Shown piece after piece: positions 36,711 through 46,008 of a stretch of DNA of 53,957 bases (positions are counted from its first letter, which is position 1; the number at the start of each line of letters is the position of its first letter). Where the stretch lies: NCBI GenBank assembly GCA_008933805.1, contig WBUH01000023.1, forward strand, positions 1 through 53,957. Direction: 5' to 3'. The DNA is from Bacteroidota bacterium (lineage in GTDB: Bacteria; Bacteroidota; Bacteroidia; UBA8524). The position numbers and the translations under genes are program-made. Under the pieces are notes generated by a model, which was not told the origin of the DNA, made no database searches, and saw nothing but the letters and a program-made list of their open reading frames with translations.

Positions 36711-37133
36711 TTAGTCCCACTTTAACGCGCCTTTTTTAAGGATGTAAAAAAAGCCGGTTAGTAAAAACCCGATGAATAAAAACATTTCTATAAAACCTGT
36801 CGTCCCTAAGTCTTTGAAGTTAACAGCCCAAGGATACATGAAGATTACTTCCACATCAAACAGCACAAAAAGAATGGCTACCAGGAAGTATTTAATTGAT
36901 AAAGGGATACGGGCATTGCCCTGTGACTCGATACCACACTCAAAAGCATCAAGTTTGTTTTTTGAACGATGCTTAGGGCCAAGTACGTGTGTAACTAGCA
37001 TAGTAGTTGCAACAAAACCCAATGCTACAATGAACATCAGGGCTATTGGCAGGTATTGCATTACGTTATCGTCTATCTGCATATCTATTGTCAAAAACCG
37101 TTTAACCTTTTCTTTATTAGTATAAGTATCCAA
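36711..37133 (-). CDS. nuoA: NADH-quinone oxidoreductase subunit A
   Basis: Three-helix membrane subunit (ND3 homologue), first gene of the operon. The conserved loop is KLDAFECGIESQGNAR (about 67-82) with the Cys that marks the active/deactive switch region. From the ATG at 37133 it has 140 residues; starts at residue 18 (37082) or 25 (37061, MQYLPIALMF) would give the more usual 116-123 and are equally possible, because no Shine-Dalgarno sequence decides. Confidence 0.92.
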   Translation of the reverse strand: MDTYTNKEKVKRFLTIDMQIDDNVMQYLPIALMFIVALGFVATTMLVTHVLGPKHRSKNKLDAFECGIESQGNARIPLSIKYFLVAILFVLFDVEVIFMYPWAVNFKDLGTTGFIEMFLFIGFLLTGFFYILKKGALKWD

Positions 37134-37665: not shown

Positions 37666-37794
37666 ATGAAAAAAAACAAGTTCACTTTTATGTTTAGCAG
37701 TCCTGCATCTTTTAGGGCCCTGCTATCCTTGTTTTCTATTCCCTCAGGAGTAGTTTTTGTTCAAAGCCGAATAGCTTACATTTCCCGACGCTGA
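37666..37794 (+). CDS. Candidate arg operon leader peptide (42 aa)
   Basis: An ATG at 37666 opens 42 codons ending in Ser-Arg-Arg-stop, with Arg also at positions 17 and 35. Arg codons are AGG, CGA, CGA and CGC. The last two Arg codons (37786-37791) overlap the first arm of an alternative-hairpin set (37788-37833), the layout of ribosome-mediated attenuation. It precedes a complete arginine operon. The remainder is Ser/Phe-rich (MKKNKFTFMFSSPASFRALL at the start) and has no domain. Short ORFs can occur by chance; position, Arg-Arg-stop and the hairpins together make it credible. Confidence 0.55.
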   Translation: MKKNKFTFMFSSPASFRALLSLFSIPSGVVFVQSRIAYISRR

Positions 37795-37833
37795 TAGCGT
37801 AAGGTACTTCTTCTTGCCCCGTTACGCTCGGGG
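37788..37833 (+). promoter_or_regulatory. Candidate arginine attenuator (three exclusive hairpins)
   Basis: Segment 1 ACGCT (37788-37792) pairs with AGCGT (37796-37800). Segment 2 AGCGTAA (37796-37802) can instead pair with segment 3 TTACGCT (37822-37828). Segment 3 forms the loop of the GC stem CCCCG (37817-37821) / CGGGG (37829-37833). A ribosome stalled on the two Arg codons at 37786-37791 would mask segment 1 and favour 2:3 over the GC stem. The GC stem lacks a directly following T-run, so the switch may act at another level than intrinsic termination. Confidence 0.5.
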
Positions 37834-37929
37834 ACTAATATTTCAAAAACATACATTTTAAAAAATTTTAACGGCCTTGGCTGTGCTATGCATTTTTTGC
37901 TTGCACACAACAGGGCTAGGACATATTAC

Positions 37930-38601
37930 ATGCACAAAAAAGACTTTGTGGTGTGTGTGGCAGAGGAACGCCATGCACACTTTGCAAAACAAATTTGCGA
38001 TGAAATGGCCGCATCGGCCAAAGCAAGGGGTACCGGAATAGCCAAACGTACACCTGAGTATCTGCATCTGAAAATGACCGAAGGGAAAGCCGTAATCGCA
38101 TTTACAAAAAAAGGCGAGTGGGCAGGCTTTTGCTATATAGAGACTTGGGGACACGGCAAGTTTGTGGCCAACTCAGGTTTAATAGTTGCTCCCGAACATC
38201 GAAAAAGTGGTTTGGCAAGGGAGATAAAGGAGCAAATTTTTGCGCTTTCGCGCAAAAAATACCCCGATGCAAAAATCTTTGGCCTTACTACCGGTTTGGC
38301 GGTAATGAAGATAAACTCTGAACTGGGCTATGTACCCGTTACCTACTCTGAACTAACTGACGACGAAGCGTTTTGGAAAGGTTGCCAAAGCTGTGTGAAC
38401 TATGAGATACTGATGAGCAAGGAGCGTAAAAACTGCCTTTGCACGGCTATGCTATATAACCCCGAAGAAAAAAAGCGAGGTAAACGCAGGATGTGGGAGT
38501 TTGCCAAACAATCAAAAATATACGAACGTCTTTTACGCCTTAAACAATGGAGTTTTTTGAGGCAATTGAGGGAGGAAAGTAAAAAACTAAAATTATTCTA
38601 A
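37930..38601 (+). CDS. GNAT acetyltransferase, probable N-acylglutamate synthase of the arg operon
   Basis: A 223-residue protein from the ATG at 37930 (MHKKDFVVCVAEERHAH); an in-frame ATG at 37888 would add 14 unlikely residues. It belongs to a Bacteroidota GNAT family found beside argG. Recognisable parts are VVCVAEERHAHFAKQICDEM, GFCYIETWGHGKFVANSGL, the acetyl-CoA loop APEHRKSGLAREI, KIFGLTTGLAVMKINSELGY and the Cys-rich CQSCVNYEILMSKERKNCLC. No other ArgA or ArgJ is present, so it most likely makes N-acetyl- or N-succinyl-glutamate, the first step of the pathway; this is inferred from context. It overlaps argG by 1 bp. Confidence 0.78.
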   Translation: MHKKDFVVCVAEERHAHFAKQICDEMAASAKARGTGIAKRTPEYLHLKMTEGKAVIAFTKKGEWAGFCYIETWGHGKFVANSGLIVAPEHRKSGLAREIKEQIFALSRKKYPDAKIFGLTTGLAVMKINSELGYVPVTYSELTDDEAFWKGCQSCVNYEILMSKERKNCLCTAMLYNPEEKKRGKRRMWEFAKQSKIYERLLRLKQWSFLRQLREESKKLKLF

Positions 38602-39797
38602 TGATGAAAAAAGCAGTTTTGGCCTTTAGTGGCGGACTTGATACCACTTATTGCGCCGTTTATCTTGATAAAATATTAGGGTGTGAAGTGCACGCCGTAA
38701 CCGTAAATACAGGCGGTTTTAATACTGACGAAGTTGCAGCTATTGAGCAACACGCCTTCAAACTGGGAGTACACTCGTACACCTGCCTTGATGAGCGTGA
38801 GAACTTTTATAACAAAGTGATACGCTTTTTGGTGTTTGGCAACATACTTAAAAACAATACCTACCCACTTTCGGTAAGTGCCGAACGTATTGTGCAGGCC
38901 ATCGCCATAGCTGAGTACGCCAAAAAAATAAATGCCGATTGTATTGTGCACGGCAGCACAGGTGCAGGCAACGACCAAGTGAGGTTTGATATGGTGTTTA
39001 ATATACTTGCCCCTGAAATAAAAATTATTACTCCAATACGTGATAACAAACTTTCGCGTGAGGAAGAGCTAACCTTTTTAAAACGATACGGTATCACCAT
39101 GAATTTTGAAAAGGCCATGTATAGCATCAACAAAGGGCTTTGGGGCACATCAGTAGGAGGGAAGGAAACCCTAACCTCACACCAACCTTTACCTGATGAG
39201 GCTTACCCTACACCGCTAACTAAAACTGAAAGTACCAACCTTACCCTTAGTTTTTCGAAAGGAGAGTTAAAGGGTATTAACGGTGAGAATTTTGAAAATT
39301 CTGTTGATGCTATTCTGAAACTTGAAGAACTAGCAGCAGGCTATGGTATTGGCCGAGAGGTACACGTGGGCGATACCATTATAGGCATTAAAGGCCGAGT
39401 GGGTTTTGAGGCGGCAGCCCCGTTAATTATCATCAAAGCGCACCACGCGCTTGAAAAACATACACTTACCAAATGGCAACTGTATTGGAAAGACCAACTG
39501 GCGGCTTGGTACGGAAACTGGATGCACGAAGGCCAGTACCTCGACCCGACTATGCGAGATATGGAGGCATTTATGCAAAATACCCAGCAAACCGTAAGCG
39601 GTGATGTGTTTGTAACCTTGCACCCGCACAGGTTTATGATAAACGGTATACAATCTCCCCACGATTTAATGGCCGCCAAATTTGGCAGCTACGGTGAGAT
39701 GAACAATACTTGGACGGGCGAAGACGTGAAAGGCTTTGCTAAAATTTTCGGAAATCAGGTAGCTATATATCAACAAGTAAATGGAAAAGAAAATTAA
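38601..39797 (+). CDS. argG: Argininosuccinate synthase
   Basis: Joins citrulline and aspartate using ATP, the penultimate step of arginine synthesis; 398 residues. The PP-loop AFSGGLDTTYC (8-18), the citrulline/aspartate region VHGSTGAGNDQVRFD (about 117-131), ITPIRDN and the block NKGLWGTSVGG identify it. Two ATGs in a row (38601, 38604) could start it. It overlaps the upstream GNAT by 1 bp and argC by 17 bp. Confidence 0.95.
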   Translation: MMKKAVLAFSGGLDTTYCAVYLDKILGCEVHAVTVNTGGFNTDEVAAIEQHAFKLGVHSYTCLDERENFYNKVIRFLVFGNILKNNTYPLSVSAERIVQAIAIAEYAKKINADCIVHGSTGAGNDQVRFDMVFNILAPEIKIITPIRDNKLSREEELTFLKRYGITMNFEKAMYSINKGLWGTSVGGKETLTSHQPLPDEAYPTPLTKTESTNLTLSFSKGELKGINGENFENSVDAILKLEELAAGYGIGREVHVGDTIIGIKGRVGFEAAAPLIIIKAHHALEKHTLTKWQLYWKDQLAAWYGNWMHEGQYLDPTMRDMEAFMQNTQQTVSGDVFVTLHPHRFMINGIQSPHDLMAAKFGSYGEMNNTWTGEDVKGFAKIFGNQVAIYQQVNGKEN

Positions 39798-40761
39798 AGC
39801 AGGCATAGCAGGTGCAGCAGGATATACAGGCGGCGAGTTGCTGCGTTTGCTGCTGTTGCACCCCAACGTAGAAATTGTGTTTGCCCACAGCAATAGCAAC
39901 GCGGGCAAACCTATTTATCATGTACATACTGACTTGTTGGGCGATACGAATTTGCTTTTTGCCAGTGAGTTAAGCAATGATATTGACGTGCTGTTTTTGT
40001 GCATGGGGCATGGAGACAGTAAAAAGTTTTTGGCAGCGAATACCATTCCATCACACATAAAGATTATAGATTTAAGTCAGGATTTCAGGTTAAAGGGCAA
40101 CGCCGCCGATAAATGGATATACGGCCTTCCCGAACTGAACCGCGACCAAATAAGCATAGGCAACTACCACATTGCCAACCCCGGGTGTTTTGCAACCTGC
40201 ATTCAATTGGCTTTGTTGCCTTTGGCAAAAGCAGGCTTGCTGCAAACCGATGTGCACATTAACGCTACCACAGGCTCAACAGGTGCGGGGCAATCGCCAA
40301 GCGCTATCAGCCATTTCAGTTGGCGGGCAAACAACCTTTCGGTGTACAAAGCATTTGAACACCAGCACTTAAACGAAATTGGCGAAAGTCTGTTGCAGTT
40401 GCAACCTTCGCTTACAGCACCCTTAAATTTTGTTCCCCAGCGGGGCAATTTTACGCGCGGCATTCACGCGGTGGCTTACACGCAAAGCAACTTGAACATA
40501 GATGAAGCTGTGGCTTTGTACAATGATTATTATAACAATCATCCGTTTGTACACATCAGCCTGCGCCCTGTTGATTTGAAACAAGTAGTAAATACTAATA
40601 AATGCCTGTTGCATATAGAAAAACACGGCGATATGCTGATGATAATCAGCATCATCGACAACCTGCTGAAAGGCGCATCAGGGCAGGCTGTGCAAAACAT
40701 GAATCTTGTTTTTGGTTTGGAAGAAACCACAGGACTAAAACTTAAACCCGTAGCATTTTAA
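39781..40761 (+). CDS. argC: N-acetyl-gamma-glutamyl-phosphate reductase
   Basis: NADPH-dependent reductase of the third step, 326 residues. The nucleotide loop GAAGYTGGEL (11-20) and the active-site NPGCFAT with catalytic Cys136 are present, followed by GSTGAGQSPS and the C-terminal QAVQNMNLVFGL. If the pathway uses succinylated intermediates, this enzyme acts on N-succinyl-glutamyl phosphate. It begins within argG and ends 14 bp before argD. Confidence 0.95.
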   Translation: MEKKIKAGIAGAAGYTGGELLRLLLLHPNVEIVFAHSNSNAGKPIYHVHTDLLGDTNLLFASELSNDIDVLFLCMGHGDSKKFLAANTIPSHIKIIDLSQDFRLKGNAADKWIYGLPELNRDQISIGNYHIANPGCFATCIQLALLPLAKAGLLQTDVHINATTGSTGAGQSPSAISHFSWRANNLSVYKAFEHQHLNEIGESLLQLQPSLTAPLNFVPQRGNFTRGIHAVAYTQSNLNIDEAVALYNDYYNNHPFVHISLRPVDLKQVVNTNKCLLHIEKHGDMLMIISIIDNLLKGASGQAVQNMNLVFGLEETTGLKLKPVAF

Positions 40762-40775
40762 AAAAACGAAAACCC

Positions 40776-41918
40776 ATGAATTTATTCGATGTATATCCCC
40801 TGTTTGATATAACCCCTGTAAAGGCTGAAGGCTCTTACATTTGGGACGATAAAGGCAACCGCTACCTCGATTTGTACGGAGGGCACGCCGTAATTTCCAT
40901 CGGGCACAAGCACCCGCATTATGTGAAAAAGCTAACCGACCAATTAAACGGGATTGCTTTTTACTCCAACGCTGTAAAAATGCCTATGCAGGCTGAACTG
41001 GCTGAAAAATTAGGCCGTTTGTCGGGCTACGAAGATTACAGTCTTTTCCTTTGCAATTCAGGAGCCGAAGCCAACGAAAACGCTTTAAAGTTGGCATCAT
41101 TCCACAACGGTCGCAAGAAAATAATAGCCTTTAGCAAATCATTCCACGGTCGTACCTCGCTGGCAGTAGCCGCTACGGATGATGCTTCCATCGTTGCTCC
41201 TGTCAATCAAACCGAAAATATCACCATTCTGCCCTTCAACGATATGGAGGCCGCCGGCCAACACATTACCGATGAGGTTTGCGCCGTAATTATTGAGGGA
41301 ATACAAGGCGTGGGCGGGGTGCAAATACCCACCACCGAATTTTTCCAACACCTGTCAGCCTTGTGCGAACAAACGGGTGCTATCCTTATTTTGGATGAAG
41401 TACAATCGGGCTACGGGCGTTCGGGCAAGTTTTTTGCCCACCAACACGCAGGTATAAAACCTCACCTTATTACTGTTGCCAAAGGCATGGGCAATGGTTT
41501 CCCCGTGGCGGGGGTGCTTATCAATCCCTCATTCAAAGCTAAATACAGTATGCTGGGCACCACCTTTGGCGGCAACTACCTTGCTTGTGCTGCTGCCATT
41601 GCCGTTTTGGATGTGATAGAAGAAGAAAACCTTGTGCAGCAAGCCGCCGAAACTGGCGAGTATATTGTAAATGCCCTTAAAAACCATCCCGCGGTGAAAG
41701 AAGTACGCAGTTTAGGGTTGATGATTGGTGTTGAACTACACTCGCCCTGTGCCCCTGTGCGCAACGGTTTATTGTTTAAGCACCGCATTTTCACAGGTTC
41801 ATCGTCAGACAAAAACACCCTGAGAATATTGCCTGCACTCAATCTCTCAAAAAGCGATGCTGATGTATTTATAGCTGCTTTTAATCAGGTATTGCCTAAT
41901 ACACTCTCGCAGCCATGA
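40776..41918 (+). CDS. argD: N-acylornithine aminotransferase
   Basis: PLP-dependent class III aminotransferase that makes N-acylornithine, 380 residues. Lys236 (TVAKGMGNGFPVAGV) is the Schiff-base lysine, Asp207 (LILDEVQSGYGRSG) contacts the pyridine nitrogen, and NSGAEANENALKLA binds the phosphate. The 3' end overlaps argF' by 4 bp. The family handles acetyl- and succinyl-ornithine, so the acyl group is not settled by this gene. Confidence 0.95.
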   Translation: MNLFDVYPLFDITPVKAEGSYIWDDKGNRYLDLYGGHAVISIGHKHPHYVKKLTDQLNGIAFYSNAVKMPMQAELAEKLGRLSGYEDYSLFLCNSGAEANENALKLASFHNGRKKIIAFSKSFHGRTSLAVAATDDASIVAPVNQTENITILPFNDMEAAGQHITDEVCAVIIEGIQGVGGVQIPTTEFFQHLSALCEQTGAILILDEVQSGYGRSGKFFAHQHAGIKPHLITVAKGMGNGFPVAGVLINPSFKAKYSMLGTTFGGNYLACAAAIAVLDVIEEENLVQQAAETGEYIVNALKNHPAVKEVRSLGLMIGVELHSPCAPVRNGLLFKHRIFTGSSSDKNTLRILPALNLSKSDADVFIAAFNQVLPNTLSQP

Positions 41919-42865
41919 AGCAATTTATCAGCGTAAACGATGTGCCCGATGTGGCAGCTTTGGTGCAAGAGGCTATTGAACTGAAAAAGCAGCCGTATGC
42001 CTTTAACCAGTTGGGCAAACACAAAACCTTGGGGCTAATTTTTATGAACCCCAGCCTGCGTACCCGCCTCAGTACCCAAAAGGCCGCTGCCAATTTGGGT
42101 ATGGAGGTAATGGTAATGAACTTTGATAAAGACGGCTGGACGTTGGAGATGAACGAAGGTGCAGTAATGAACGGCACCACTGTTGAGCACATTAAAGATG
42201 CTGCCGCCGTAATGGGGCTGTACTGTGATATTATTGGCATCCGCAGTTTTCCTTCATTGAAAAACCGAGAAGACGACTACAACGAGGTATTGCTGCACAA
42301 ATTCATAAAATACTGCGGCGTACCGGTGGTAAGCCTTGAATCAGCAACATTACACCCGTTGCAAAGTTTCGCTGATGCAATCACCATAAAGGAAAACTGG
42401 CAACTTGAACGCAAGCCCAAAGTGGTGCTTACTTGGGCTCCGCATATCAAGCCCTTACCCCAAGCTGTTGCCAACTCGTTTGCACAGTGGATGGGCAAAA
42501 CCTATGTTGACTTTGTTATCACCCATCCCGAAGGTTTTGAGCTGAACGAGCAGTTTACTCCCAACGCTACTATTACCAACAAACAAGAGGAAGCCTTGGA
42601 AGATGCCGATTTTGTTTACGTGAAAAACTGGTCGGGCTACCACGATTATGGTAAAACAATTACCGGAGCCAAACATTGGATGCTGACCGAAAAACACTTG
42701 CTGCACAGCCGGCAAGCTAAAATAATGCACTGTCTGCCGGTGCGTCGTAACGTTGAACTAAGCGACGAGTTGATTGACGGCCCTAACTCGTTGGTATTGC
42801 AACAGGCACACAACCGTCTGTTTGCTGCACAAACGGTACTAAAACAACTATTATCCCAAATGTGA
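41915..42865 (+). CDS. argF': N-acylornithine carbamoyltransferase (ArgF' type)
   Basis: A 316-residue transcarbamylase of the acetyl/succinyl-ornithine branch, which makes N-acylcitrulline. The carbamoyl-phosphate loop is SLRTRLSTQ (47-55), followed by HPLQSFAD and the class signature HCLPVRRN near the C-terminus; ordinary ornithine carbamoyltransferases have a different pattern. It aligns well by eye with Bacteroides N-succinylornithine transcarbamylase along its length. The position that sets substrate choice (Pro90 in B. fragilis SOTCase, Glu92 in Xanthomonas AOTCase) is Val90 here (GTTVEH), so specificity cannot be read off. It overlaps argD and argB by 4 bp each. Confidence 0.93.
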   Translation: MKQFISVNDVPDVAALVQEAIELKKQPYAFNQLGKHKTLGLIFMNPSLRTRLSTQKAAANLGMEVMVMNFDKDGWTLEMNEGAVMNGTTVEHIKDAAAVMGLYCDIIGIRSFPSLKNREDDYNEVLLHKFIKYCGVPVVSLESATLHPLQSFADAITIKENWQLERKPKVVLTWAPHIKPLPQAVANSFAQWMGKTYVDFVITHPEGFELNEQFTPNATITNKQEEALEDADFVYVKNWSGYHDYGKTITGAKHWMLTEKHLLHSRQAKIMHCLPVRRNVELSDELIDGPNSLVLQQAHNRLFAAQTVLKQLLSQM

Positions 42866-43659
42866 TGAATAAAGAAACGCTTTATATTGTTAAAATAGGA
42901 GGCAATGTAGTAGACGATGAAACCGCATTGCAACAGTTTTTAGCCGATTTTGCCTCGCTAAAAGGGCACAAAATTCTGGTGCACGGCGGGGGTAAAATTG
43001 CCAGCCAGGTTGCCCAAAAATTAGGCATTGAAGTGAATATGGTAAACGGTCGCCGCATTACCGATGCTGCTATGTTGGATGTGGCTGTGATGGTGTACGC
43101 AGGTCTTGCCAATAAAAACATTGTAGCCAAGTTGCAGGCGTTGCAATGCAACGCCATTGGTCTTAGCGGTGCTGATGCCAACTGCATTACTGCCCATAAA
43201 CGTAAGCACCCAGAGATTGACTTTGGATTTGTCGGCGATATTGACAGCATTAACACCAGTGCCTTTGCACCCTTGCTAAATGGCGGTCTCACTCCTGTTT
43301 TATCTGCCATCACACACGATAACAACGGACAATTACTTAATACCAATGCCGATACTATTGCCGCGGCATTGGCTGTAGCCTTCGCTGATTTATACAATGT
43401 TCATCTAATCTACTGTTTCGAGAAAAACGGAGTGCTTCAAAATGTTGAAGACGAAAACTCTGTAATCCCGTTTATCAATTTGGATTTATACCGAGAGTTA
43501 AAACAACAAAACGTTATAGCTCAAGGTATGTTGCCAAAGCTTGATAACGCTTTTGATGCCGTTCAATCAGGCGTTCAAAAAGTAATCATAGGTCACTCAG
43601 CACAATTAGTTTATTTAACCCAACAAAACCACCATGCAGGAACCCTTATCAGCAACTAA
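42862..43659 (+). CDS. argB: N-acylglutamate kinase
   Basis: Amino-acid kinase family enzyme that phosphorylates N-acetyl- (or N-succinyl-) glutamate, 265 residues. It shows YIVKIGGNVVDD at the start, ILVHGGGKIASQVAQKLG (about 39-56), the substrate segment VNGRRITDAAMLDVA, NTNADTIAAALAVAFADLY and MLPKLDNAFDAVQSGV near the end. The start overlaps argF' by 4 bp, and argE begins 26 bp inside its 3' end. Confidence 0.94.
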   Translation: MMNKETLYIVKIGGNVVDDETALQQFLADFASLKGHKILVHGGGKIASQVAQKLGIEVNMVNGRRITDAAMLDVAVMVYAGLANKNIVAKLQALQCNAIGLSGADANCITAHKRKHPEIDFGFVGDIDSINTSAFAPLLNGGLTPVLSAITHDNNGQLLNTNADTIAAALAVAFADLYNVHLIYCFEKNGVLQNVEDENSVIPFINLDLYRELKQQNVIAQGMLPKLDNAFDAVQSGVQKVIIGHSAQLVYLTQQNHHAGTLISN

Positions 43660-44719
43660 CAATCACCACCTTTATACACAAGCGGTTGAGTTGCTACAAC
43701 AACTGATAGCCATTCCTTCATTTAGTAAAGAAGAAGACAAAACAGCCGCTTTATTAGTTAATTTTATGCAAATCCGCGGCATTGAAGTAAAACGCAAAGG
43801 CAACAATGTTTGGGCTGTGAACAAACATTACGACCTAAACAAGCCCAGTCTATTGCTTAACTCGCACCACGATACGGTTAAACCCAATGCCAATTATACT
43901 CTTAACCCGTTCAGCCCTATTATTTCTGAGGGCAAATTGTTCGGGTTAGGCAGCAACGATGCGGGAGCTTCGCTGGTATCATTATTGGCAGCATTCCTCC
44001 ATTTTTACAAAGCCGAAAACCTGCACTACAACATTGTATTTGCAGCATCGGCAGAAGAAGAAAACTCAGGCCTGAACGGTATAGAATTAGTATTGCCCGA
44101 AATTGGCCCCATTGAATTTGCTATTGTGGGAGAACCTACCCAAATGCACATGGCCATTGCCGAAAAGGGTTTGATGGTATTGGACTGCACCGTAAAAGGT
44201 AAAGCAGGCCATGCCGCCCGTGAGGAAGGCGAAAATGCTTTGTACAAGGCGTTGAAAGATATTGAGTGGTTTAAAACTTTTGAGTTTCCTATCGTATCAC
44301 CCACCTTGGGCAAGGTGAAAATGTCGGTAACTATTATTCAGGCGGGCACGTTGCACAACATGGTACCCGAAACTTGTACTTTTACGGTAGATGTTCGCTG
44401 CACAGATGCTTACACACTCGAAGAGTTATTGGCAACCATAAAAGCCAATGTTAGTTGTGAGGTATCTCCGCGCTCGCTGCGCATGAGGCCCTCCTCAATC
44501 TCATTAAATCATCCCGTAGTGCAAAGCGGAATTGCTTTGGAAAGAACCTGCTACGGCTCTCCTACTACTTCCGACCAAGCACTAATGCCTTTTCCTTCTC
44601 TCAAAATGGGTGTGGGCGATTCGGCTCGGTCGCACACCGCCGATGAATTTGTTTTTCTGCACGAAATAAAAGACGGCATTGACTTATACATAGACCTATT
44701 AACCCCTCTTTTGGTATGA
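43634..44719 (+). CDS. argE: N-acylornithine/N-acylcitrulline deacylase (M20 family)
   Basis: M20 dinuclear-zinc amidohydrolase, 361 residues. Metal and catalytic residues are visible: His78 and Asp80 (NSHHDTVKP), Asp109 (GSNDAGASL), Glu-Glu in ASAEEENSGLNG, and a late His (ARSHTADEFV). A dimerisation lid domain occupies about 175-285. Because this cluster carbamoylates the acylated ornithine, the natural substrate is expected to be N-acylcitrulline rather than acylornithine; this is inferred from pathway logic. It overlaps argB by 26 bp and argH by 4 bp. Confidence 0.88.
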   Translation: MQEPLSATNNHHLYTQAVELLQQLIAIPSFSKEEDKTAALLVNFMQIRGIEVKRKGNNVWAVNKHYDLNKPSLLLNSHHDTVKPNANYTLNPFSPIISEGKLFGLGSNDAGASLVSLLAAFLHFYKAENLHYNIVFAASAEEENSGLNGIELVLPEIGPIEFAIVGEPTQMHMAIAEKGLMVLDCTVKGKAGHAAREEGENALYKALKDIEWFKTFEFPIVSPTLGKVKMSVTIIQAGTLHNMVPETCTFTVDVRCTDAYTLEELLATIKANVSCEVSPRSLRMRPSSISLNHPVVQSGIALERTCYGSPTTSDQALMPFPSLKMGVGDSARSHTADEFVFLHEIKDGIDLYIDLLTPLLV

Positions 44720-46008
44720 AACTTTGGCAAAAAGACACACAGCAAACCGCCGATTGGATTGAAACCTTTACCGTAGGCCGCGACCGCGAGTTTGATTTGT
44801 TATTGGCAGAGCACGATGTACTTGGTTCCATAGCACATACCTCCATGCTACAAAGTATCGGTTTGCTTACCGAGGTTGAGTTGAATAGTATCCTTAAAGG
44901 GTTACACGCAATTCTTGATGAAATACGCAACGGTACATTTACCATTGACGCGAGTGCCGAAGACATTCATTCGCAAATTGAATTACTGCTTACCCAACGC
45001 ATTGGCGAAAATGGCAAAAAAATACACAGCGGACGCAGCCGCAACGACCAAGTGCTGCTGGATTTGAAGCTGTATTTAAGGGCTGAATTAAAACACGTTT
45101 CCCAAGAGGTAAAAGCACTTTTTGATACTCTTATACATTTAAGCGAAACTCACAAAAGCAAACTACTGCCGGGTTATACCCATTTGCAACTGGCTATGCC
45201 TTCATCGTTCGGGTTGTGGTTTGGTGCCTATGCTGAAAGTTTGGTAGACGATATGGAGATGGTACAGGCAGCCTACAATATCTGCAACAAGAATCCTTTG
45301 GGTTCAGGGGCAGGTTATGGCTCGTCATTTCCTTTGGATAGGGAATTAACTACAAAGTTACTAGGCTTTGAAACCCTAAACTATAATGTGGTGTATGCCC
45401 AAATGACAAGGGGAAAATCGGAGAAAGCAGTCGCAACGGCTTTGGCATCGGTAGCGGCAACACTTTCAAAATTTGCCTACGATGTGTGCTTGTATATGAA
45501 CCAAAACTTTGGGTTTATTCGCTTTCCTGATGAACTCACCACCGGTTCCAGTATCATGCCGCACAAGAAAAACCCCGATGTTTTTGAATTGATACGCGCC
45601 AAATGCAACCGCATACAGGCGGTGCCCAACGAGTTAACATTGCTGATAAACAACCTGCCATCAGGCTATCACCGCGATATGCAGATAACTAAAGAAGCTT
45701 TGTTCCCGGCTATTACGGAGTTGTTGAACTGCTTAACTACCTGTCGCCTTATGTTGCAGCACATTGTGATAAAGGATGATATTCTTACTGATGAAAAATA
45801 CATACACCTTTTTAGCGTAGAGCGTGTGAACGAGTTGGTATTACAAGGTACTCCCTTTAGAGATGCTTACAAACAGGAGGGTAAGGAAATAGAAGAAGGC
45901 AGTTTTAAAGCTCCAACTCAGCTAAACCATACTCACGCGGGCAGTATGGGTAACTTATGTAACGATGAGATAGAAAGGGAAATGGGAAAGTTTAAGGAGC
46001 TATTTTAA
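44716..46008 (+). CDS. argH: Argininosuccinate lyase
   Basis: Last enzyme of arginine synthesis, splitting argininosuccinate into arginine and fumarate, 430 residues. The fumarase-superfamily signature GSSIMPHKKNPDVF is at 277-290; other conserved parts are IHSGRSRNDQV (103-113), GYTHLQLAMPSSFG and LGSGAGYGSSFPLDRE. It closes the arginine operon; the next gene has its own candidate promoter. Confidence 0.95.
   Translation: MKLWQKDTQQTADWIETFTVGRDREFDLLLAEHDVLGSIAHTSMLQSIGLLTEVELNSILKGLHAILDEIRNGTFTIDASAEDIHSQIELLLTQRIGENGKKIHSGRSRNDQVLLDLKLYLRAELKHVSQEVKALFDTLIHLSETHKSKLLPGYTHLQLAMPSSFGLWFGAYAESLVDDMEMVQAAYNICNKNPLGSGAGYGSSFPLDRELTTKLLGFETLNYNVVYAQMTRGKSEKAVATALASVAATLSKFAYDVCLYMNQNFGFIRFPDELTTGSSIMPHKKNPDVFELIRAKCNRIQAVPNELTLLINNLPSGYHRDMQITKEALFPAITELLNCLTTCRLMLQHIVIKDDILTDEKYIHLFSVERVNELVLQGTPFRDAYKQEGKEIEEGSFKAPTQLNHTHAGSMGNLCNDEIEREMGKFKELF

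Follow-up and report, generated by a model that had tools for sequence, protein, structure and literature searches.

A candidate ribosome-mediated arginine sensor in the leader of a Bacteroidota arginine biosynthesis operon

The trp, his, leu and thr leaders of Proteobacteria are ribosome-mediated amino-acid attenuators, and fungi have the arginine attenuator peptide, of conserved sequence, which responds to free arginine by stalling the ribosome. Leader-peptide attenuation is also known in the phylum Bacteroidota since, according to the main text of one study, it was inferred from transcriptome and structure before amino-acid biosynthesis operons of Flavobacterium psychrophilum (PMC9723704). 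The Bacteroid-trp motif (RF01692, Weinberg 2010) is a structured RNA candidate of Bacteroidetes whose name points to trp genes (PMC2864571). In Gammaproteobacteria, the Salmonella speF leader orf34, or speFL, contains consecutive Arg codons at which pausing alters RNA folding, and is sensitive to arginine; it controls ornithine decarboxylase and responds to ornithine (PMC6386406). The leader peptide of Staphylococcus aureus rbfL uses rare Arg codons to sense arginine limitation (PMC13009471). For the arg operons themselves, we found no description of an arginine leader in the open-access literature searched.

Here, we analysed a 53,957-nt stretch of DNA from an uncultured Bacteroidota bacterium, the whole of which we term the window. 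The original prediction was that a 42-codon ORF ending in Arg-Arg-stop precedes the arginine operon, and this ORF is indeed present on the plus strand at 37666-37794, between a divergent nuo operon on the minus strand, which ends near 37133, and the plus-strand arg operon. It translates as MKKNKFTFMFSSPASFRALLSLFSIPSGVVFVQSRIAYISRR (MKK...ISRR-stop, with the C-terminal end ...SRIAYISRR), and its assignment as a leader draws on homologous leaders of 41-45 codons in eight related loci and on a codon-position test. Both the sequence and the Arg-by-codon profile mark the last two codons before the TGA stop (37792-37794) as terminal Arg codons (37786-37791), namely CGA at 37786 (R41) and CGC at 37789 (R42), while the sequence and a stall simulation point to the CGA codon at 37768-37770 (R35) as an upstream stall site. 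The sequence immediately 3' of the stop is TAGCGTAAGGTACTTCTTCTTGCCCCGTTACGCTCGGGG. We consider it very probable that 37666-37833 is a cis-acting arginine sensor, in which an Arg-ended leader peptide is combined with RNA folds that depend on the position of the ribosome.

Within the ORF, the hairpin CTATTCC-CTCA-GGAGTAG, followed by TTTTT (37736-37758, plus strand), is a possible pause or terminator-like signal; with its T-run, it may cause a pause during which the ribosome can catch up. Mismatch-free copies of this 23-nt pattern occur in the arg leaders of G111, G047 and L032, and a search of 395 genomes gave no further exact match, all other matches having one or two mismatches. The idea that this hairpin has spread to non-arg loci was dropped, as exact copies are confined to arg leaders.

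The operon is arranged on the plus strand in the order GNAT-argG-argC-argD-argF'-argB-argE/dapE-argH. Its first gene (37930-38601) encodes a GNAT-family acetyltransferase and is followed by argG (38601-39797), argC (39781-40761), argD (40776-41918), the N-acetylornithine carbamoyltransferase-like argF' (41915-42865), argB (42862-43659), a gene for an argE/dapE-like deacylase (43634-44719) and argH (44716-46008). The longest ORF of the GNAT gene begins at 37888; since homology of the protein begins near Met15 (37930), translation probably starts at 37930, which gives a gap of approximately 135 nt between leader and gene. The GNAT protein is uncharacterised. It is strongly conserved next to argG, Pfam acetyltransferase models match it only weakly, and it may supply the missing N-acylglutamate synthase step. 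Two genomes of the window's family (G003, which is 97% complete, and G004) gave no match to argG or GNAT and have possibly lost arginine synthesis. The window genome (G000) gave no hisG match and matches to trpE below cut-off only; histidine and tryptophan auxotrophy is possible in this organism, and these amino-acid operons gave no useful comparison for the arg leader.

Homologues of the GNAT gene were found in 55 of 149 relatives' genomes, and 80 further loci were taken from GTDB contigs with named records, yielding 135 loci in total, 130 of them with distinct and sufficiently long upstream regions. The GNAT gene was followed by argG in all 30 loci checked for this. As a leader we accepted an ORF with at least two Arg residues in its last 10 codons and an end 60-215 nt upstream of the GNAT gene. 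At least two Arg residues in the last 10 codons were found in 86.9% of the 130 loci, compared to 17% of dinucleotide shuffles and 22% on the reverse strand, and at least three in 58.5%, compared to 3.2% in shuffles. At the window locus, the Arg-rich ORF end was matched in 1% of shuffles of the same region. Arg frequency is 16-63% per codon at positions -1 to -10 and at most 10% farther upstream. Among 45 close leader pairs, changes at codon positions 1, 2 and 3 numbered 259, 207 and 579, respectively, without correction for phylogeny. Given that the leader Arg residues are drawn from all six Arg codons, that the rare CGA codon makes up 30% of leader Arg codons compared to 10.6% in GNAT genes, and that close leader pairs differ by 414 synonymous and 206 nonsynonymous substitutions (both comparisons uncorrected for phylogeny), we conclude from this comparative sequence evidence that the leader ORF is translated and that selection maintains its arginine codons.

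The nine leaders of the window's clade follow the pattern M(K)K...RR-stop over 41-45 codons, with shared start and end, and the only invariant residues are M1, L22, R41 and R42. Across families, the leader peptides share mainly their Arg content; what many families have kept is a translated leader at this position with an Arg-rich end. The original prediction had named relatives as the place where the Arg-rich end and the pairings should recur, and a lack of conservation there as grounds for giving it up; in these genomes, the ORF is widely conserved and the GC hairpin described below covaries.

Three short segments and a GC-rich stem can be recognised at the end of the leader, all on the plus strand. 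Segment 1 (ACGCT, 37788-37792) shares nucleotides with the last Arg codons and with the stop, and may pair with 37796-37800. Segment 2 (AGCGTAA, 37796-37802) is complementary to segment 3 (TTACGCT, 37822-37828), which is the loop of the conserved, covarying GC hairpin CCCCG-TTACGCT-CGGGG (37817-37833). The fold of the window leader RNA (81 nt) is unremarkable by itself (z = -1.2). Three small hairpins were rejected as the global minimum, as a composite hairpin has the lowest computed energy in the ribosome-free leader.

In the nine clade leaders, five of the six pairs of the window-type GC hairpin show compensatory changes, and this covariation exceeded that of all 500 shuffles and all slid registers. 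Complementarity between segments 2 and 3 reached a summed length of 39 in the window's clade, compared to at most 34 in 500 shuffles. The 1:2 pairing, by comparison, showed no compensatory changes in this clade. The three mutually exclusive hairpins that were originally proposed hold for the presence of the segments and the GC stem, for covariation of the GC hairpin and for a 2:3 pairing that is significant in the clade, but not for compensatory change in 1:2. Complementarity between loop and segment 2 was not found in Cyclobacteriaceae-type leaders and the other families tested; a universal loop-to-segment-2 pairing was rejected, being significant in the window's clade only, and the 2:3 switch, lacking in Cyclobacteriaceae-type leaders, is therefore not shared by all. 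When 395 genomes were searched with a window-type covariance model, the strong matches were all arg leaders; weak matches in G227 and G366 had no GNAT or argG match nearby and were taken as chance.

Other lineages carry other hairpins. A CC-YAYGY-GG hairpin located 10-23 nt 3' of the leader stop was found in 25 of 115 leaders where 0.4 were expected; its flanks pair well beyond the chance level, and its carriers include Algoriphagus, Cyclobacterium, Runella, Rhabdobacter and Adhaeribacter. One idea is that the UACGY loop resembles a UNCG tetraloop or an Arg anticodon loop. Leaders of the Chitinophagaceae type (n = 28) have a different hairpin, CTGAYAGG...CCYRTCAG, whose 5' arm includes the stop codon; the outer helix pairs in all 28 sequences, and compensatory changes are present. 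In the Chitinophagaceae-type loci L012 and L043-L110, the hairpin CTGAYAGG...CCYRTCAGTG is highly conserved across the leader stop, unlike the window architecture. A Chitinophagaceae covariance model gave one strong match each in 34 of 118 genomes of the family, one genome having an extra weak match, and all 30 fetched matches lay approximately 100-130 nt upstream of a GNAT gene, at the end of an Arg-rich ORF.

How ribosome position might select between folds was simulated for the window leader, by thermodynamic prediction on assumed ribosome edges. The predicted probability of the GC hairpin was ~1 with the ribosome at the stop and ~0.01 with a stall at R35, in which case the 3' arm of the hairpin is taken up by pairing with the Arg-codon region. 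A stall at the terminal CGA gave only an intermediate early fold. Stalls at the two terminal Arg codons alter the exposed RNA slightly, and the strong predicted switch requires the stall at R35. In contrast to the classical superattenuated state, the ribosome-free window leader is predicted to lack the GC hairpin, which some members of the clade are predicted to retain even without a ribosome.

The best reading is that the leader works like the amino-acid attenuators. When arginine is plentiful, the ribosome would reach the stop and cover segment 2, allowing the GC hairpin (37817-37833) to form, and expression of GNAT-argGCDF'B-argE/dapE-argH would go down. When charged tRNA-Arg is scarce, the ribosome would stall at the upstream Arg codons, segment 2 and/or the Arg-codon region would pair with the hairpin, and the operon would be expressed. 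We infer this direction of control, as well as the step affected, which we take to be early termination of the transcript (intrinsic with a weak U-tract, or dependent on Rho) and not something later in expression. In the window, the shut-off may proceed via Rho, weak-U-tract termination or RNA stability, all of which are candidates because canonical terminators are rare among the 115 leaders. A ribosome-mediated arginine attenuator, as originally predicted, is supported by the Arg-rich end, the covarying hairpin, the 2:3 pairing of the clade and the attenuators of two relatives, L008 and L009.

In these two loci, which belong to the window's family, a short Arg-rich leader lies ahead of a strong hairpin, and a T-run completes a terminator of the type GGCTTGCCGCATGGCAGGCC-TTTTTT. 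The L009 leader peptide is MKQVLLNYRSLRRRPYAAG. In a simulation of L009 that models the stage before the 3' arm of the terminator hairpin is made, the 5' arm pairs upstream (approximately -26 kcal/mol) with the ribosome at the first three Arg codons; this pairing is weaker at the fourth and of negligible stability with the ribosome at the stop. L008 and L009 carry a complete Arg attenuator of the textbook kind, ending in a U-tract terminator, with the switch itself predicted in L009. Such a full U-tract version in the same family, together with the geometry and the stall simulation of the window leader, argues that the GC hairpin may attenuate transcription intrinsically even with a weak U-tract, a reading that we regard as possible but somewhat short of an even chance. 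However, canonical terminators were found in just four of the 115 leaders (L008, L009 and possibly L124 and L074), two of them convincing, and the hairpin tails of the window's clade are rich in C or A rather than in U. The window itself has no U-tract behind the five-pair stem of the GC hairpin, the tail being ACTAATATTT, which agrees with what was first noticed there. Among 14 gene ends examined in the window, one carries a U-tract terminator by strict and two by loose standards; since so few do, the missing U-tract counts less against termination than it would in E. coli, and weak U-tracts may be normal here, although the argument comes from a small sample of gene ends.

Alternatively, the position of the ribosome at the leader end could decide whether Rho loads before GNAT, with the hairpins tuning rather than terminating. 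Nearly all leaders lack a U-tract, the sequence from hairpin to gene is poor in G and contains more C than G in 71% of leaders, and there is a precedent in Salmonella speF leader orf34, whose consecutive Arg codons govern Rho-dependent termination (PMC6386406). However, the bias of C over G is modest (19% compared to 14%) and not obvious in the window itself, and two relatives of the same family have a clear intrinsic terminator; we regard Rho as a rather unlikely route. Distinctly less likely, in our view, is that the leader peptide acts on translation or stability of the operon mRNA and not on transcription. Folding and decay of speF mRNA do respond to pausing at Arg codons (PMC6386406), and in S. 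aureus the arginine sensing of rbfL acts on translation (PMC13009471), whereas the conserved hairpins here lie near the leader stop, approximately 100 nt from the GNAT start in the window, and by inspection there is no conserved pairing with the gene start. Finally, a chance ORF with chance hairpins in an intergenic region, the false lead that the original prediction allowed for, would suit the ordinary fold, but it is extremely improbable and contradicted by the comparative data, namely the conserved Arg-rich ends, the codon-position bias, the covariation and the synteny; the window alone says little, and it is because relatives conserve the Arg-rich ends that the observation is not chance.

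The presence of the arginine repressor ArgR was compared with that of the leader across genomes. No match to ArgR (PF01316) was obtained in the window genome, while the control genomes matched. Among the 149 relatives' genomes, nine had ArgR matches, seven of them above cut-off. ArgR and GNAT are both present in four genomes, G036, G076, G109 and G140 (loci L134, L129, L135 and L128, respectively), in which the ArgR match lies approximately 300 nt upstream of GNAT on the same strand, in the place that the Arg leader occupies elsewhere, and no ORF passed as an Arg leader. Since these four have ArgR upstream of GNAT and no Arg leader, leader and repressor look like alternatives in this small sample. 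ArgR control probably serves the same physiological task, albeit through a DNA-binding protein, whereas the window leader is RNA. The Arg leader is found repeatedly within the group, for the most part in genomes that lack the usual repressor; the ribosome itself is therefore probably the arginine sensor. This gives a concrete, testable answer to how ArgR-less Bacteroidota sense arginine.

Like the trp, his, leu and thr attenuators, the window leader combines a short translated ORF, in which the operon's own amino acid is encoded, with predicted alternative folds behind it. In contrast to them, it would sense arginine, belongs to the Bacteroidota, carries its Arg codons at the very end of the ORF and, like most of its relatives, has no U-tract terminator. 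As regards the conserved sequence that marks the fungal arginine attenuator peptide, the nine window-clade leaders have only the four invariant residues noted above. The F. psychrophilum leaders come from the same phylum, but the main text of that report names no arginine operon (PMC9723704). Rfam searches at gathering and relaxed thresholds found no relevant family, the Bacteroid-trp motif included, at the window leader or in 20 relatives. The window leader precedes GNAT-argG and not an inducible ornithine decarboxylase as in speF, and the structures differ. In rbfL, translation of a biofilm regulator is blocked when arginine is short (PMC13009471), which is the opposite of the sign proposed for the window leader. 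We propose, as a possibility short of a favoured conclusion, that many Bacteroidota without ArgR use a translated Arg leader with diversified RNA architectures, namely a conserved-loop hairpin, a stop-spanning hairpin in Chitinophagaceae and a classical terminator in two relatives, and a mostly U-tract-free shut-off, a route undescribed for amino-acid attenuators. The window leader is attenuator-like and departs in one defining feature, the U-tract terminator, which was looked for in the window and is absent. It extends control by the ribosome to the synthesis of arginine and to a phylum in which such control has hardly been studied, and the series of architectures, from a textbook terminator to hairpins with no U-tract, offers a way to learn how attenuation works with the RNA polymerase and ribosomes of Bacteroidota.
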